A stretch of DNA of 64,000 bases from Rhizophagus irregularis. Taxonomy: Eukaryota; Glomeromycota; Glomeromycetes; Glomerales; Glomeraceae. The notes below the pieces were generated by a model. The model saw only the letters and a program-made list of their open reading frames with translations, had not been told where the DNA came from and ran no database searches. Positions 43,176-52,810 of this stretch are shown here, in pieces. The translations under genes and the position numbers were made by a program. Numbering within the stretch: the stretch's first letter is position 1; each line of letters opens with the position of its first letter. The stretch is from the NCBI RefSeq assembly GCF_026210795.1, contig NC_089429.1, positions 4,464,001-4,528,000 of the forward strand, read 5' to 3'.

Positions 43176-45799
43176 TTGTGAAATTATAGAATAAAATTTT
43201 TTTATTGGAACTGAAAATGAAGAGCTAATTAAAGATATTTTCTTTAAAAGTTTTTTATGACGATTAAGTTAAATGTTTAAAAATTCAAACTTATCTGAAT
43301 ATTATAAATGTTGATGTAACAAATATTTTAATGTATATAAATCCTTAGCCATGCCGATCAAATATTTTGTCATTTGACAGCCGAGATTCGTTATGATTTT
43401 TGAACATATGATTTAAATCTAATCTTTTATTCTTTGATAAAAAGACTTCTATAAAATGGCTAGTCATTTTTAGTTACTAATTAAGTAAATGATGTACTGT
43501 ATGGCAAGCTGAGTTGGACAAAATTATCGGACATTGTGCGGTAAAAAATCATGCATGGCTAGACAAAATGTCACCCCGTGTCTGACATTTTACCTGTTTA
43601 TGCTTAATTTTCATCTGTCCCGTGCTTGATATTTATCTGTACGTGCTTGATATTTTTGATGTTTATCTATGATCTATCATGTGATTGATGTTTTTATCTG
43701 TTCGTGCTTGGTATTTTTATCTGTCCATGCTTGAGGTTTTATCTATCTGTACTTGGTGTTTTTGTCCAATTGTATTTGATTTAATCCAACTATATTTGAT
43801 AATTTTATCTTGTCAAAAATTAGTTTCTTTGTCAGCATAGGGTTGATATTTTGTCAATCACATGTTTTTTAAGTTTAGCATAGTTTATGTATGGGTATGC
43901 GAAAGAAATGAGTTCACAGTCAAAAGAAATTATAGAAAGATCAATAGTAGAATACGAAGTAATGTTAAAAATTCAAGAGAAGCACAAGCACACAGAATGT
44001 AATATTTTACACGAAATTAATTTTAATTTTATACAGATTCTTAATCAACAATCAGAGATTTGATTAGGAAAAAGTAAAGATTGGGAGTTAATAAGAGGCG
44101 TTTTTAATAACAGATTTAACAAGATTTCATCGAAGATAGAAGTAAAAAATTTAACTGATGATCTTTGGTATTTCTGTTATATCAATGTAGAATAAATATT
44201 TGGAATAAAAGATGTGACGAGGTAAATGAGATAGAAAAGAAAAAAGGAATAAAGAAGATGGATAAAAGAAAGCGTAAAATAAAGGAGTATGAGGTAGATA
44301 TTGAAGAAAATAAAGAAAAATCAAAAAAAACAAGTAGAAAATAATAAAAAAAGATAAAAACAGATAGAAAAAAAGATTAAATTAGTAACAAAAGATAGAT
44401 TGATCGGAAGGTTCACTGAGGTAGGCAATATTATATTAATTCAGATTATCTTAATTATTAGTTTAGAATTAATTGTTTAGTATAGTATAGGATAGATATA
44501 CTTTAGTTATAGAGGATAATTTAATTTTTTATTAAATTTTCTTCTAAGTGTTTAATAATTATGTAATCAATTAATATTATTGAATTGTTAATTAATCAAC
44601 GCGTTACTAATTTTTTTTTTTAAAAAAAAAAGAAAAAAGTTTAGCATAGTTTTTACACGAAGAATTTTTTTTTATTTTATTAGCTTTTTTTTTATAAAAC
44701 AATTTTGTAGAGAATTTTTATTTTTAATATAGGCAAAGGCTTTTTTTGATAGAATTTCTTTTGGAATTTTTTTTGATAAAAAATTTTGTTAGAGATTTTT
44801 TTTTATTGATAGGGACATTTCTAAGTTTTTTTTTTGATGGATAATTTCGTTAAAAAATTTAAATTTTATTGGAGAATTTTTTTTAATAAGAATTTTTTTT
44901 TTGACATATAACTTAATTTGTTGTAACAATTTTTTTAACAGGAGAAATTTTTTTTTTTGTAGAAAATTCTTTGGTGAATTTTTTTAATAGGAAAGATTTT
45001 TTTTGATAGAGAATTTCGTTAAGAATTTTTTTTAATAGGAATTTTTTTAATAGGTTAGAATCTTTAAATAGGGAAATGTGTTTTTTGACGGAAGATTTTT
45101 GTTAGAAATTTTCTTCAATCAGGATATTTTTTTTTGATTGAGAATTTCATTAGAGAATTGTTGGTTGAAATTTTTTTTGTTTTTTTGATGGAGAATTTTG
45201 TTAGAAGTCTTAATAGAAAATTTATCGATCTTTTTAGCGATAGTATGCTTTTGGATGATAAATTTCTGACGATCATCTTCCAAATTTATTCACTTTTTCG
45301 CTTAATTTGTAGTTTGTCATACGATCTACATGCATTTTTTCATAATTTCGGAAATGCTCAATGTGAACTTTTTTGATTCAATTTTATATAGCTATATATA
45401 TTGCTAATTGCAATTGCAATTGCAATAGCTATATAGCTATAGACGTTGTTATTGCAATATTGCTTCTTTGATATCATTAGAATAAAATTACAAAATATTC
45501 ATTTTTGTGCCACTTTCGCTACATATTAACTTGAGGCATCAAACAATAAGTTTTATATTTGTATTTGATTTTGTTGATCTTTATTGATTTTCAATAAAAA
45601 TAGATTCAAATATATTTCTTTTTCGTTAAAAAAATTGAAACGTGTAGATGATCATGTAGATCTTGTGATAATCAAAATAAAAAAGTGTTAGACGAAAATT
45701 TTTTTCAAAAATTTTTCTTTTTTTATAAATTTTTTTACATTTTTTTCTATTTGTAAGATTAAATATTTGGATATTACATAATCACAAATTAAATTTATA
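43176..45799. other. Intergenic region rich in low-complexity repeats
   Basis: 43600-43800 has about six degenerate copies of a CTGTCCGTGCTTGATATTT-type word (about 28 bp). An open frame of 51 codons from the ATG at 43908 looks protein-like but has no recognised family. 44640-45200 is a long T-rich stretch of degenerate GAGAATTTTTTTT/AATAGG words. 45395-45460 is a palindromic AGCTATATA/TTGCAATTGCAAT cluster. Confidence 0.5.
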
Positions 45800-45807
45800 A
45801 GTGTATT

Positions 45808-45880
45808 TATTGCCGTTTTCAGAAATGTTGACAATTCAAAAATGGTGATCATTTTGCCGATCGAACACACCGAACACACC
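45808..45880 (+). repeat. Left terminal inverted repeat
   Basis: Exact reverse complement of 49343-49415. It begins TATTGCCGTTTTCAGAAATG and ends in two CGAACACACC words. Additional imperfect copies of that word continue to about 45930. Confidence 0.9.
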
Positions 45881-45933
45881 AAACACACGCCGAACACAAA
45901 CTGAATCACAAACTGAACACAAACTGAACACAA

Positions 45934-47816
45934 ATGTTATACAAAATATTACATGAAAAACTGACGCGAAGTCGTAAATGTTACAATTTTTGTTTTTTTT
46001 TCATTACAATTATTTTAATGTCAAGCTTAAAGTCAAGAAAATACCTTATAGGTTTATGTTTTCTTTGCCAAGAATGCTTATATTGTAGTAAAAACTGTAG
46101 TAATAGAGGTTGTAGGTGCAGAAATAATAAAGAAGTAACTCCAGAACATAAAAAAAGACAACCAAGAAAATATTATTCACGCGCTTTTCAACCTAAAAAC
46201 TCAATTAAATCATACCAGTTAGATGAATTAAAACGCGCAAATGAAGATTATGGATATAAAATGGACTTTTCTAAAGAATTTAATTTTTCATTGTGTACTA
46301 AATGTCATAATAAGTATAATCGTTTAGGTAAAAAAGTAGATAAAAATCAAGAGGAAGAAATTGAAATTATCATGGATGCAGATGATCCATTTCCTCTTGA
46401 AATTGCAGATACAAGTACGTTACGAAATATTTCTCCAAGTCTTTCATCAATCAATATATCTGGAACCGCAGATACAAACACATCACAGAATTTTTCTTCA
46501 AGACCATCATCTGAACCAAATGTGGATTCTTTGGCAAGTGAACCTCTTTCATTTGAAATCAAATTCAAACTAATCCTCAAATTTTCCGATGGAAAATGCT
46601 ATCCTGCTAAATGGGAATTTATCACAGTAGAAGATTTTTATGAATTTAAAAATGGTTTGGAAAATTTAATTCAATTACAACTTGAGGACCAAGTAATTTT
46701 CCAAGATGATTATATTATTTCATATAAGCATGAAAAGGGAAGTGGTTTAGGAACACAATTAGCAAGTACAAGAGACTGGGAAGAATTCTTAAAGGAATAT
46801 AATTGTATAACTTCTAATAATAAAGTATTAGTAATTATTATTACAATGAAGAAAAAACTTACTAACAAGCGAATTCATTTCAGGTAAATAATTTGCATTA
46901 ATTTAATTATCTTTAAAATATATAAAATTAATATTATTAACCAGAAAATATTAAATTTTTTTGTATTAGTGATGAAGATGATGAAGAAACGGGTAAGAAA
47001 AAGAAAAAAAGCACCAGTGATGATAGGAATAAAAGAAATAAGGAAAAAACTTCCTTGAACCAAATTCCAAAGGAAAAAAACATCAATGAAGAAGATGCAG
47101 AAATTGCGAAAAATGTTATGGAATTGCACTCTAAATGGTATTGTAACGAACATGAGAGAAGTTGCTATGTTGATTTAACAAGACATATTATCCTTACAAC
47201 AAATCATTTATCTACATGGGCGAGATCTATTGTAAGTTGAATTTTTAACATAGTTATCACGTTACAATTGTTATATCATATAATACATTCATTTAATAAT
47301 ATTCATATATATTATATACGTTTGTTTATTTTATAGAAAAATAATCTGGCTACCTTTGATGAACCTCCAACATTGCCATTATTTGATGCTGCAATTTCAG
47401 TAAAGAGAAATAATTTACAAAATTCAAATATTTCAACTTCAAATCCCTTTTACCCTTCTTCATCTAATATTACTACATCACCATCTTTTATTGCTATGCC
47501 TTTTCCCTTTTACAATCCAGGTATGTTTAACAATCAACAAAATTTACAATTTCAAGCGAATTGTATGCCTAATAATTTTTCACAAGTACCACAAACAAAT
47601 ACTTCACTTCATGTTTTATCAATTGAGGAATTTTTTGAGAATTTATCAAAGGAATTTGGCGAAAATATTTTTGAAGAAGTGAAAAATAAATTTATACAAG
47701 AAACAATTGATGTTTTGGATATATTTGATCTTAAAGAATCTGATTGGCAAGATTTAAACGTAAAAATTGGTTTAAAAACCAAAATCATTAGAGAAGCAGA
47801 AAAATATAGAAAATAG
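45934..47816 (+). CDS. Transposon-borne cysteine-rich protein with SAM-like C-terminus, 3 exons
   Basis: Proposed exons are 45934-46883, 46970-47231 and 47337-47816 (GTAAAT and GTAAGT donors, phases 2 and 0). They give 563 residues from the first ATG, or 535 from the ATG at 46018, which I prefer because it avoids reading into the terminal region. The N-terminus has a cysteine cluster (CFLCQECLYC, CSNRGCRC) then a basic stretch and a second pair (CTKCHNKY), suggesting metal binding. The middle has a Ser/Thr-rich linker and a folded segment (SFEIKFKLILKFSDGKCYPAKWEF...). Exon 2 holds an acidic/lysine-rich stretch and WYCNEHERSCYVDLTRHI...WARSI. The last 60 residues (ENLSKEFGENIFEEV...LKESDWQDLNVKIGLKTKII) look like a SAM domain. 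The role is unknown; it is carried between the same TIRs as the transposase, so it may assist or regulate transposition. Confidence 0.7.
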
Positions 47817-47937
47817 ATCAATTATATTGTGATAGTTTGTAATATGAATTTTTTTTTGATACGATCATAATAGAAGTAAATAATAAAAAGTAACTGACGC
47901 GTCCATTTTATAATATAATTACTTTATTGATAAAGTA

Positions 47938-49130
47938 TTAAAGATACAATGATTTTTGGAAAAATGATTGAGCCATAGCAGGAGTAATTTGTGCACATGC
48001 TACTGTTAAAGTAAAATAAGGATCAGGGCAATTTTCTACATAATTTCTATTTCTTTTCAACCAGCCTTTAATTGAAGAAAAAGCAGTTTCAATTGGGTTT
48101 AAATCTGGTGAGTATGGTGGAAGAAATAAAATTTTACATCCAATTGATTCAATAAAATTAACTAAAAATTCATCATGATGGATTTGAGCGTTATCCATTA
48201 TTAAAACACTGTTCTTTTGGGGAAACGGATTCATATTTGGAAGCTATATGCATGTGTAACGCATAAATATTTGTTAATTTTTGTCCTATTAATTAAAAAA
48301 AGTCAAGCTAAAAAATTACACTTACTACTTTAGCCAAAATAAAATTAATAAATCGTTCTTTAGTACAACTTCCTTGCATAATATCTAATGAAATAATCCC
48401 ATCTAAAGACAAAGCTGGAAGTAACGTATAACGTGTTCCTCTAACAAATACAACTTTTTTTACCGCTGCTTGATTTCGCGGAGAATACCCATATTGTCTA
48501 CAGGATGTACGTTCATCTTTTGAACTTTCATCTATAAAAATAAGTTGTTCAGGTTGATAATATGTTCCAATAGTCATTATATAATGACCACATAAAATAT
48601 CACTCCTTTCTTTAGCGTGTTTTTCTAACTTTTAAATTAAAAATAAATTTAATTAATAATTTCAAATTTTAAAATAAAATTAGATCGTTAAATTTGAATA
48701 AACCTTTTTATGTGTAATTCCACAATACTTCAAATAACGCCATATTGTTGTATTGGAAACCCTTTTACCGGTTCTTCTTGCCATCTCAACAGCCATTTCA
48801 TCTAAATACATATCAGGCTTTTCTTTAATCATTTGTATCAAGATCTTTAAAACAAAAATTAAAATTTAATATACTAAAATAAATAATAAACACATTTTCA
48901 TAAAATTATATTATACAAACTTTTATGTCTGAATTATTAAAAATTTTTCTTTGTCCCTTTTGATCTTGTATTGGATCTTTAACATCTTTCCAAAGTATAT
49001 AGTAATTTAATACTCTATATATTGTTTTTTCGCTTACATAAAGAAATCTAGAAATTTTTTCTATCGAATAACCATCATTCCATAAATATACAATTCTCCA
49101 TTTGATATCTTCACTATATTTTTTTGGCAT
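47938..49130 (-). CDS. DD34E transposase (IS630-Tc1-mariner superfamily), 4 exons
   Basis: Proposed exons on minus are 48921-49130, 48704-48844, 48326-48628 and 47938-48243, all phase 0, giving 319 residues. The start is the ATG of MPKKYSEDIKWRIVYLW. Residues 1-60 form a helix-turn-helix (GYSIEKISRFLYVSEKTIYR). A second DNA-binding half lies in exon 2 (MYLDEMAVEMARRTGKRVS, ending ITHKK). The catalytic core is complete: D at about 150 (IFIDESSKDER), D at about 235 (LIMDNAQIHH) and E at about 270 (PYSPDLNPIE), with 34 residues between the last two. DDE enzymes of this group cut and paste DNA in the nucleus using two metal ions. Introns are small and the first donor is GTTTGT. The frame is intact, so the enzyme may be functional. 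Members normally duplicate only TA, which does not fit the 8-bp repeats at this element's flanks. Confidence 0.85.
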
Positions 49131-49342
49131 ATTCTAAAGAAAATATACATTTTAATATACTTATAATGAAAATTTCACACAATTTTATATCTAAATAATT
49201 AAAATTTTGACCAACTTTACTAAAGTTCAGCTCGTAATTTCGAATAAACAGAAGGAGAAGACCAGGGACAACGTCAAAAAAAAAAATAAATAAATATTTA
49301 TTCACGTATTTATCATATTTATTTTGTGTTCAGTTTGTGTTC

Positions 49343-49415
49343 GGTGTGTTCGGTGTGTTCGATCGGCAAAATGATCACCATTTTTGAATTGTCAACATTT
49401 CTGAAAACGGCAATA
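49343..49415 (-). repeat. Right terminal inverted repeat
   Basis: Exact reverse complement of 45808-45880. It ends CGGCAATA and is followed directly by AGTGTATT, the same 8 bases that precede the left terminus. Confidence 0.9.
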
Positions 49416-49640
49416 AGTGTATTTCTTTTAGAAAATAATGTGATATTTCATAAAAAATATTTTTTCTTACTATTTTTATTTTTAAACTACTTGAATTTAT
49501 AATTAATGAAAGAATTAATTCAAAATTCATGTCAGGTCATTTTCAAATTTTTATCATCTCAGTTCTTAATTTTTATATTACATTTATTTTTTATATAAAA
49601 TTTTTTTAAATTAAACTTCTTTTTCCAAATATACTATAAT

Positions 49641-52600
49641 CTCCACTTTGGCCAAATGAAATCAACTTCATTTATTAATTAAAAGTTGTTCAAGCATGTT
49701 GAAACCACTTGAATATTAATTTTCATGAATATAGGTATAGTGCTTAGAGAAAATTGCATTTCTTGATGATATTAACTCTCTTTTCTGTTTTTTAATTTAG
49801 AGCGTAATATTTCCACTTTGGGCAAATGAAATCAACTTTATTTATTAAATGAAAGTTGTTCAGGCAGGTTGAAACTACTTGAATATTAATTTTCATGAAT
49901 GTAGGTGTAGTGCTCAGAGAAAATTGCATTTTTCTTGATGATATTAATTCTGTTTTCTGTTTTTTAACTTAGAGCGTAATATTTCCACTTTAGACAAATG
50001 AAATCAACTTTATTTATTAATTGAAAGTTGTTCAGGCAGGTTGAAACCATTTGAATATTAATTTTCATGAATGTAGGTGTAGTGCTTAGAGAAAATTGCA
50101 TTTTTCTTGATGATATTAACTCTCTTTTCTGTTTTTATTTAGAGCGTAATATTTCCACTTTAGACAAATGAAATCAACTTTATTTATTAATTGAAAGTTG
50201 TTCAGGCAGGTTGAAACTACTTGAATATTAATTTTCATGAATGTAGGTATAGTGCTCAGAGAAAATTGCATTTTTCTTGATGATATTAACTCTCTTTTCT
50301 GTTTTTATTTAGAGTGTAATATTTCCACTTTAGACAAATGAAATCAACTTTATTTATTAATTGAAAGTTGTTCAGGCAGGTTGAAACCATTTGAATATTA
50401 ATTTTCATGAATGTAGATGTAGTGCTTAGAGAAAATTGCATTTTTCTTGATGATATTAACTCTCTTTTTTGTGTTTTAATTTAGAGCGTAATATTTCCAC
50501 TTTAGACAAATGAATCAACTTTATTTATTAATTGAAAGTTGTTCAGGCAGGTTAAAACAACTTGAACATTAATTTTCATGAATGTAGATGTAGTGCTTAG
50601 AGAAAATTGCATTTTTCTTGATGATATTAACTCTCTTTTTTGTGTTTTAATTTAGAGCGTAATATTTCCACTTTAGACAAATGAATCAACTTTATTTATT
50701 AATTGAAAGTTGTTCAGGCAGGTTAAAACAACTTGAACATTAATTTTCATGAATGTAGGTGTAGTGCTCAGAGAAAATTGCATTTTCTTGATGATATTAA
50801 CTCTCTTTTCTGTTTTTTTAATTTAGAGCGTAATATTTCCACTTTAGACAAATGAAATCAACTTTATTTATTAATTGAAAGTTGTTCAGGCAGGTTGAAA
50901 CCATTTGAATATTAATTTTCATGAATGTAGGTATAGTGCTCAGAGAAAATTGCATTTTCTTGATGATATTAACTCTCTTTTCTGTTTTTTTAATTTAGAG
51001 CGTAATATTTCCACTTTAGACAAATGAAATCAACTTTATTTATTAATTGAAAGTTGTTCAGGCAGGTTGAAACCACTTGAGTATTAATTTTCATGAATGT
51101 AGATGTAGTGCTTAGAGAAAATTGCATTTTCTTGATGATATTAACTCTCTTTTCTGTTTTTTTAATTTAGAGCGTAATATTTCCACTTTAGACAAATGAA
51201 ATCAACTTTATTTATTAATTGAAAGTTGTTCAGGCAGGTTGAAACTACTTGAATATTAATTTTCATGAATGTAGGTGTAGTGCTCAGAGAAAATTGCATT
51301 TTTCTTGATGATATTAACTCTCTTTTCTGTTTTTTAATTTATAGCGTAATATTTCCACTTTGGGCAAATGAAATCAACTTTATTTATTAAATGAAAGTTG
51401 TTCAGGCAGGTTGAAACTACTTGAATATTAATTTTCATGAATGTAGGTATAGTGCTCAGAGAAAATTGCATTTTTCTTGATGATATTAACTCTCTTTTCT
51501 GTTTTTATTTAGAGCGTAATATTTCCACTTTAGACAAATGAAATCAACTTTATTTATTAATTGAAAGTTGTTCAGGCAGGTTGAAACCATTTGAATATTA
51601 ATTTTCATGAATGTAGATGTAGTGCTTAGAGAAAATTGCATTTTTCTTGATGATATTAACTCTCTTTTTTGTGTTTTAATTTAGAGCGTAATATTTCCAC
51701 TTTAGACAAATGAATCAACTTTATTTATTAATTGAAAGTTGTTCAGGCAGGTTAAAACAACTTGAACATTAATTTTCATGAATGTAGGTGTAGTGCTTAG
51801 AGAAAATTGCATTTTTCTTGATGATATTAACTCTCTTTTCTGTTTTTTTAATTTAGAGCGTAATATTTCTACTTTAGACAAATGAAATCAACTTTATTTA
51901 TTAATTGAAAGTTGTTCAGGCAGGTTGAAACTACTTGAATATTAATTTTCATGAATGTAGGTGTAATGCTCAGAGAAAATTGCATTTTTCTTGATGATAT
52001 TAACTCTCTTTTCTGTTTTTTAATTTATAGCGTAATATTTCCACTTTGGGCAAATGAAATCAACTTTATTTATTAAATGAAAGTTGTTCAGGCAGGTTGA
52101 AACTACTTGAATATTAATTTTAATGAATGTAGGTATAGTGCTCAGAGAAAATTGCATTTTTCTTGATGATATTAACTCTCTTTTCTGTTTTTATTTAGAG
52201 CGTAATATTTCCACTTTAGACAAATGAAATCAACTTTATTTATTAATTGAAAGTTGTTCAGGCAGGTTGAAACCATTTGAATATTAATTTTCATGAATGT
52301 AGATGTAGTGCTTAGAGAAAATTGCATTTTTCTTGATGATATTAATTCTGTTTTCTGTTTTTTAACTTAGAGCGTAATATTTCCACTTTAGACAAATGAA
52401 ATCAACTTTATTTATTAATTGAAAGTTGTTCAGGCAGGTTGAAACCATTTGAATATTAATTTTCATGAATATAGGTATAGTGCTTAGAGAAAATTGCATT
52501 TCTTGATGATATTAACTTACTTTTCTGTTTTTTAATTTAGAGCGTAATATTTCCACTTTGGGCAAATGAAATCAACTTTATTTATTAAATGAAAGTTGTT

Positions 52601-52810
52601 CAGGCAGGTTGAAACCACTTGAATATTAATTTTCATGAATGTAGGTGTAGTGCTCAGAGAAAATTGCATTTTTCTTGATGATATTAACTCTCTTTTCTGT
52701 TTTTTAATTTAGAGCGTAATATTTCCACTTTAGACAAATGAATCAACTTTATTTATTAATTGAAAGTTGTTTAGGCAGGTTGAAACTACTTGAATATTAG
52801 TTTTCATAAG
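49641..52810. repeat. Minisatellite of about 170 bp, about 19 copies
   Basis: The anchor (T)TTCCACTTT recurs at 49811, 49983, 50153, 50323, 50495, 50667, 50837, 51010, 51179, 51352, 51522, 51694, 51866, 52038, 52208, 52379, 52551 and 52721, plus a divergent first copy at 49641. Variants (GGGCAAATG against AGACAAATG; GAATCAAC against GAAATCAAC) recur in groups. For example, the TATAGCG/GGGC type at 51352 and 52038 lies 686 bp apart, which is four units. That indicates higher-order repeats. No open frame. It starts some 220 bp beyond the transposon. Confidence 0.9.

Follow-up and report, generated by a model that had tools for sequence, protein, structure and literature searches.

A two-gene transposon in the window

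The stretch analysed here, referred to throughout as the window, comprises 64,000 nucleotides of the Rhizophagus irregularis genome (contig NC_089429.1, positions 4,464,001 to 4,528,000 of the forward strand). At window positions 45810-49413 it contains an apparently complete DNA transposon of 3604 bp, in which a DD34E transposase gene on the minus strand and a convergent gene on the plus strand, encoding a cysteine-rich protein with a SAM-like domain, are both enclosed by a single pair of terminal inverted repeats (TIRs). IS630-Tc1-mariner enzymes normally duplicate TA alone and usually travel as single genes, and Tc1/mariner is the standard illustration of transposition that relies on one element-coded protein. 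The element described here is a member of a two-gene cut-and-paste lineage within this superfamily, in which the second gene, hereafter the accessory gene, recurs regularly and is, between families, maintained by selection.

The left (45810-45880, plus strand, beginning TTGCCGTTTTC) and right (49343-49413, minus strand) TIRs are exact inversions of one another over 71 bp, or 73 bp when the adjoining TA is counted, with 94% agreement across 100 nt. The element is bounded by T-TA at 45807-45809 and by TA-A at 49414-49416, such that it sits in a TTAA target whose TA has been doubled as the target-site duplication. Immediately outside lie two copies of the 8-bp sequence AGTGTATT, at 45800-45807 and 49416-49423, the first A of the right copy being also the last A of TTAA; we judge both to be host DNA, the left copy being pre-existing, as discussed below. 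None of these flanking features has a strand. Within and behind the left end, a run of GAACACA(CC/AACT) repeats on the plus strand (45861-45934) provides possible binding sites.

The transposase gene is read as four exons on the minus strand, encoding 319 amino acids in a stop-free frame: exon 1 (49130-48921) holds the helix-turn-helix, exon 2 spans 48844-48704, exon 3 (48628-48326) carries the first catalytic aspartate, and exon 4 (48243-47938) the second aspartate and the glutamate. The protein matches DDE_3 at 98.7 bits against a cut-off of 28.6 (E=3.5e-28), with HTH_23 and HTH_Tnp_IS630 also above cut-off. The catalytic residues are D150, D235 and E270, each kept in 21 of 23 family rows, and 34 residues separate D235 from E270. 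The accessory gene is read as three plus-strand exons encoding 535 amino acids: exon 1 (46018-46883) carries CxxCxxCxxC..CxC and CxxC motifs, exon 2 (46970-47231, splice sites placed by eye) a CxxHxxxCx6H motif, and exon 3 (47337-47816) the C-terminal SAM-like domain and the stop codon TAG. A preliminary description of the locus had reported the exact 73-bp inverted ends, the copies of AGTGTATT on both outer sides, and the undisrupted transposase and convergent cysteine-rich/SAM-like gene within the same ends; we confirm all of these observations, and the element is apparently intact.

The two genes are linked throughout the genome

The genome searched comprised 146.7 Mb in 32 contigs, the window lying on contig C1. 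Because searches with the two proteins scored the best candidates only, the resulting counts are lower bounds, with at least 109 matches to the accessory protein and at least 179 to the transposase. Pairing was counted from 57 of the 109 accessory rows, aimed at every place with one or two rows each, and from 68 of the transposase matches listed. On this basis a family transposase lies in convergent orientation within 8 kb of 46 of the 56 accessory loci; at one further locus the transposase lies in the other orientation, and nine have none that near among the matches listed. Viewed from the other gene, an accessory gene is present at 47 of the 65 transposase places among the matches listed. 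Four of the remaining 18 places were fetched: two do carry the accessory gene, one has a family end without an accessory match, and the fourth is decayed. Among the loci fetched, no complete element of the two-gene lineage had the transposase gene alone.

In 18 of 20 fetched pairs, matched ends enclose both genes, with a span of 3.2-3.6 kb in all but two longer cases; neither L061 nor L070 has a complete end pair. A further two-gene element with both ends was found at L083. The two longer copies, L067 and L069, measure 4.3 and 5.1 kb between their ends, and their extra length suggests later internal insertions. The preliminary description had proposed a distinct lineage with an accessory protein, a proposal that is borne out by the linked convergent genes, by the same ends in diverged families and by the separate grouping of the transposases described below. 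Full-length copies do contain the second gene, and the contrary outcome, with the gene lying mostly outside such TIRs, was not what the examined loci showed.

The transposases group apart from one-gene relatives

A total of 151 DDE_3 matches was found in the genome, and the best 150 of the 151 were divided between the two-gene lineage (48) and others (102). An accessory match lies within 8 kb of 39 of the 48 family matches as opposed to one of the 102 others, and this sole exception lies about 2 kb from the two-gene element L065. Eight of the other DDE_3 elements (L085-L092) were compared directly. They share a DDE_3 transposase with the two-gene family, but differ in having one intronless main open reading frame (ORF) of 326-346 amino acids, short ends, no accessory match within 8 kb, and a separate position in the tree. 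Six of the eight span about 1.3-1.7 kb between clear ends of 28-34 bp that bear CAGT or ATACA close to the tip; L087 and L092 have weaker AT-rich inverted matches only.

When 16 two-gene and eight one-gene transposases are placed in one tree, the two groups are split by a branch with 100/100 support, and the best matches between the groups are only 22-26% identical. The tree was built from same-genome rows only, with no Tc1, pogo, mariner or IS630 references, and omitted L053, L054, L056, L060, L067, L069 and L082, which are partly near-copies and partly decayed. As regards the Tc1 family in the narrow sense (CAGT ends, one gene), the two-gene transposases do not group with their Tc1-like counterparts in this genome. 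Membership of the wider IS630-Tc1-mariner superfamily rests on the DDE_3-type transposase with its N-terminal helix-turn-helix, the DD34E spacing and the TA duplication; the usual, non-defining trait of a single gene is lacking, given that 46 of 56 accessory loci are paired with a transposase.

Selection and co-descent of the accessory gene

Accessory proteins of other families are only 25-36% identical to that of the window element. In eight of 11 between-family comparisons, the accessory gene has a ratio of nonsynonymous to synonymous substitution (dN/dS) of 0.24-0.38 and the transposase gene one of 0.15-0.23, pointing to purifying selection on the accessory gene between families. Across 23 loci, accessory and transposase distances are correlated (Mantel rho 0.59), with none of 5000 permutations as high.

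The accessory protein has two conserved sets of candidate metal ligands. Cysteines 14, 17, 20, 23, 32, 34, 93 and 96, together with C347, C354 and H361 of the exon 2 set C347/H350/C354/H361, are retained in almost every row that is not gapped there; H350 is the weakest, at 16 of 20. Because these Cys/His clusters persist across the family rows, they suggest a putative zinc-binding function. At the C-terminus, the Pfam family SAM_1 is matched in four of the seven members scanned, a set that includes near-copies (best E 9.1e-6), and a profile of this region compared with solved structures retrieves SAM domains such as that of Caskin-2 (E 4.5e-4 and weaker). SAM-like domains often self-associate. 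A search of the Protein Data Bank with accessory exon 1 gave a best E of 0.099 and was not used; a PB1-type fold for the middle of this exon, an impression from its pattern alone, is unsupported and not claimed. One scan of viral contigs found no relative of the accessory gene.

Family ends and the TTAA target

The end sequence of the window element finds a set of miniature inverted-repeat transposable elements (MITEs) of 308-481 bp dispersed in the genome, of which 25 distinct copies are readable at both ends. The search scored the best 40 of 85 candidates and gave 41 matches, all terminal matches beginning at the same base; L021, L024 and L028 were removed as duplicates, and the count excludes an inner pair in L008. 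All 25 read TTA/TTGCC...GGCAA/TAA, where the slashes mark the element borders, and none is flanked by direct repeats longer than 3 bp apart from L015, which has a 5-bp match in shifted register. The MITE family (L003-L030), in which sixteen of the 25 copies measure 461-463 bp, has the end of the window element at about 80-85% identity and inner GAACACA repeats; in six compared further, likeness to the window element is mainly confined to the terminal ~80 bp and copies of the GAACACA repeat. Among the 41 matches (best 40 of 85 candidates), no full-length copy with this end was seen other than the window element. It may supply the transposase for these MITEs.

Full-length copies agree with the miniature ones. 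TTA/TAA borders are present in all 20 copies with placed ends, the window element included, although most of these ends were placed by a motif beginning TTAT, so that TTA is partly built in; the MITE set was not chosen in this way. The other 19 copies lack any 8-bp repeat. Fifteen of 18 loci have an inverted match spanning both ends, that of L057 extending past them, while L056, L064 and L069 were placed by the motif alone; L061 and L070, with incomplete end pairs, were excluded. The window element has nine copies of GAACACA in its two 180-bp ends, compared with at most three in any of 200 single-base shuffles. As a general feature of the family, subterminal repeats are only partly supported.

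Element-free sites provide a direct view of the target. The flanks of the window element, 45501-45806 (306 bp) and 49417-49720 (304 bp), are parts of a host repeat dispersed in many copies through the genome, and at 20 places both flanks match full-length and stand four bases apart. All 20 of these close paralogous sites were fetched, and in every one the four bases at the insertion point are TTAA. Moreover, MITE L025 lies within a different copy of this host repeat, and its empty site, represented in the window around 45750-45780, is again TTAA. The window has 7357 TA sites, of which TTAA accounts for 14.7%, and the preference for it is therefore real, at least in the MITE set. A TA duplication inside a longer preferred target is not odd for the superfamily, bacterial IS630 using CTAG.

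Known systems with extra proteins

The relevant passages of PMC12242761 state that Tc1/mariner elements typically encode a transposase alone, and describe the TBE elements of Oxytricha, whose extra proteins are under purifying selection and proposed to be accessory factors. These are a 57 kDa protein with predicted zinc fingers and a kinase domain, and a 22 kDa protein with no predicted domain; when tested in E. coli, they left DNA binding unchanged. This 2025 paper calls such accessory proteins surprising for Tc1/mariner (PMC12242761). Compared by description, TBE resembles the present family in combining a Tc1/mariner-type DDE transposase with further proteins, but has two of them and telomere-like ends, whereas the family described here has one SAM-like gene and ends of the TTGCC/TCGCC type.

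Other ciliate elements are similar in outline. In the sections of PMC3464196 that concern them, Sardine and Thon of Paramecium have hypothetical ORFs in addition to a tyrosine recombinase, and Anchois is a 3.6 kb element with short TIRs and two hypothetical ORFs. The transposases of Sardine and Thon are given as DD35E in one place and with a spacer of 32 amino acids in another. A listing in PMC7325037 gives TBE and Tec (Euplotes) as DD34E and mentions three ORFs, which we take as referring to Tec. On these partial descriptions, Anchois is much like the window element in plan, and Sardine, Thon, Anchois and Tec share with our family an IS630/Tc1-type transposase accompanied by extra ORFs, yet differ in that the extra ORFs are hypothetical or tyrosine recombinases. 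PIF/Harbinger and CACTA (En/Spm) are cut-and-paste elements that also pair a transposase with a DNA-binding helper gene. They belong to other transposase families and make other target duplications, and thus offer an analogy of plan only.

Tc1-Mariner families have been reported in R. irregularis in a paper whose main text does not use the word 'accessory' (PMC11075540). A literature search at the level of titles and abstract openings, and weak to that extent, found no description of a two-gene Tc1/mariner element in fungi. The two-gene fungal lineage appears to be new, with its nearest precedent in the ciliate TBE and Anchois elements.

Proposed role of the accessory protein

Taken together, these results favour a model in which a two-gene lineage doubles TA within TTAA and maintains an accessory gene whose product aids transposition; we hold this combination as a whole to be probable, with some reserve. 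In this model, the transposase would act as in other Tc1/mariner elements, with excision at the ends and insertion at TA, cutting at the TTGCCG/CGGCAA ends and joining them across the TA in the middle of TTAA. For its part, the accessory protein would help by binding DNA at or near the ends, perhaps at the GAACACA repeats, and through self-association might keep the ends and the transposase together. A conserved second gene in dozens of copies, with one-gene relatives as controls in the same genome, makes the contribution of such a helper directly testable.

Several observations weigh against this model. Accessory dN/dS rises to 0.65 and 0.63 in the comparisons L052-W and L052-L065 (W being the window element), and W-L061 gives 0.36 for the accessory gene and 0.39 for the transposase. 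Synonymous divergence (dS) exceeds 1, near or beyond saturation, in several of the 11 comparisons, including L051-W, L055-L059, L065-L068 and L062-L068, and in eight sibling pairs (dS 0.04 or less) the ratios run from 0.08 to 2.0 in both genes, so that no clear constraint is visible in recent copies. At the protein level, the SAM_1 match fails for the window's own accessory protein, the near-copies reduce the value of the seven-member scan, and a Pfam scan of ten exon-1 proteins gave scattered weak matches and no convincing family. AlphaFold models from single sequences were too poor for use (mean pLDDT, the predicted local distance difference test, of 49 and 46), and the exon borders of both genes, with the introns predicted between them, were read by eye from GT-AG sites. 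GAACACA-like repeats are absent at the accessory end in ten of 20 elements. Finally, ten of the 56 accessory loci, all fetched, have no convergent transposase: L071, L076, L079 and L080 retain a family end beside the gene, L076 and L080 with transposase scraps as well; L073 (1640-3213) and L075 (1964-3044) have long accessory matches with neither ends nor transposase; and the remaining four are fragments.

A stronger form of the model would make the second protein an obligate component of transposition, a zinc-binding, SAM-assembling factor that binds the ends and possibly narrows the target from TA to TTAA. We put this forward tentatively, as possible rather than probable; if true, it would extend multi-protein mariner transposition beyond the ciliates.

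The principal alternative is that the accessory protein protects or regulates the element, by blocking host silencing or controlling the promoters of the element itself, and takes no part in cutting and joining. Such a function predicts the same linkage, selection and zinc/SAM make-up, and would suit the distribution of the subterminal motifs, which are commoner at the accessory end, upstream of the accessory gene (23 versus 10 in 20 elements, or 18 versus 6 without the window element). However, the motif was picked after looking, and the window element has its repeats at both ends. We regard protection or regulation as possible, but less likely than a helper role in transposition.

It is improbable that the element captured the accessory gene from the host and carries it as a useless passenger. 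The unpaired loci supply the case for a passenger, above all L073 and L075, which represent either decayed elements or genes that the host has co-opted. Against this, L071, L076, L079 and L080 look like decayed elements because the family end persists beside the gene. The pair has also been kept across families as diverged in accessory sequence as described above, with dN/dS of about 0.3 in most between-family comparisons.

The flanking 8-bp repeat is judged to be host sequence

The preliminary description had read the two copies of AGTGTATT as an unexpected 8-bp duplication, possibly reflecting altered target cutting. This was not borne out: all 20 empty sites, the empty site of the MITE, the 25 MITEs and the 19 other full-length copies fit a TA duplication, the very outcome that was to count against the 8-bp interpretation. 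The other possibility raised at the time was that of termini read as TA plus TTGCCG, with the 8-bp match due to chance. By base composition, such a match in this register has a probability of about 1.3e-4, but no duplication by the element is required to account for it, the 8 bp being present on both sides of TTAA at most close element-free sites.

In 18 of the 20 close element-free sites, AGTGTATT stands on both sides of TTAA, the remaining two (L037 and L046) having a one-base difference on one side. The doubled form is common to element-free copies whose flanks are 0 to 7% diverged from those of the window, and is carried by the nearest copy (C4:1636118-1636731), in which the left flank is 100% identical and the right has a bit score one step below identity. 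Because it is common to the close copies, the nearest included, the simplest view is that the doubled AGTGTATT predates the insertion. Eight further, less cleanly aligned copies (L093-L100) were compared at the insertion point: the more diverged L099 has AGTGTATT once, L093-L098 are without it, and in L100 the doubled unit, with its TTAA, is inverted. The host repeat thus falls into subgroups in which the unit is doubled, single, absent or inverted. Since L099 has a single copy and L093-L098 none, the doubled state is probably derived, and is most simply explained by a tandem duplication of about 10 bp within the host repeat, before insertion, which made TTAA at the junction.

Target duplications of 8 bp are made by hAT, P and Merlin elements. 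A duplication of this kind is rejected here on the evidence of the empty sites, the MITEs and the full-length copies, all of which fit TA within TTAA. It could still be argued that the element doubled a single AGTGTATT on insertion and that the element-free sites are excision scars (8 bp, TA, 8 bp) multiplied with the repeat, a scenario to which the flanks of the window copy and the probably derived state of the doubling lend some colour. We consider it very unlikely, given that neither the MITEs nor the other full-length copies have such a repeat, that the TTAA empty site of MITE L025 also lacks one, and that the doubling is shared by close copies with flanks 93-99% alike. Also very unlikely is a composite of a one-gene DD34E element beside or nested with an unrelated accessory-gene element, for which ordinary one-gene elements are at least present in the genome, and which is contradicted by the one long end pair around both genes in the window, the matched ends of 18 of the 20 fetched loci, the recurring convergent order and the separate transposase group. 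The case of AGTGTATT shows that a direct repeat flanking one copy of an element can be host sequence.

Several copies of the host repeat are 98-100% identical, from which the insertion looks recent, and the window element is probably young. Close to the element, at 49642-52807, a 172-bp unit is repeated in tandem (18.5 copies, 94% match), and elsewhere in the genome the host repeat is followed at many sites by fragments of the same unit.

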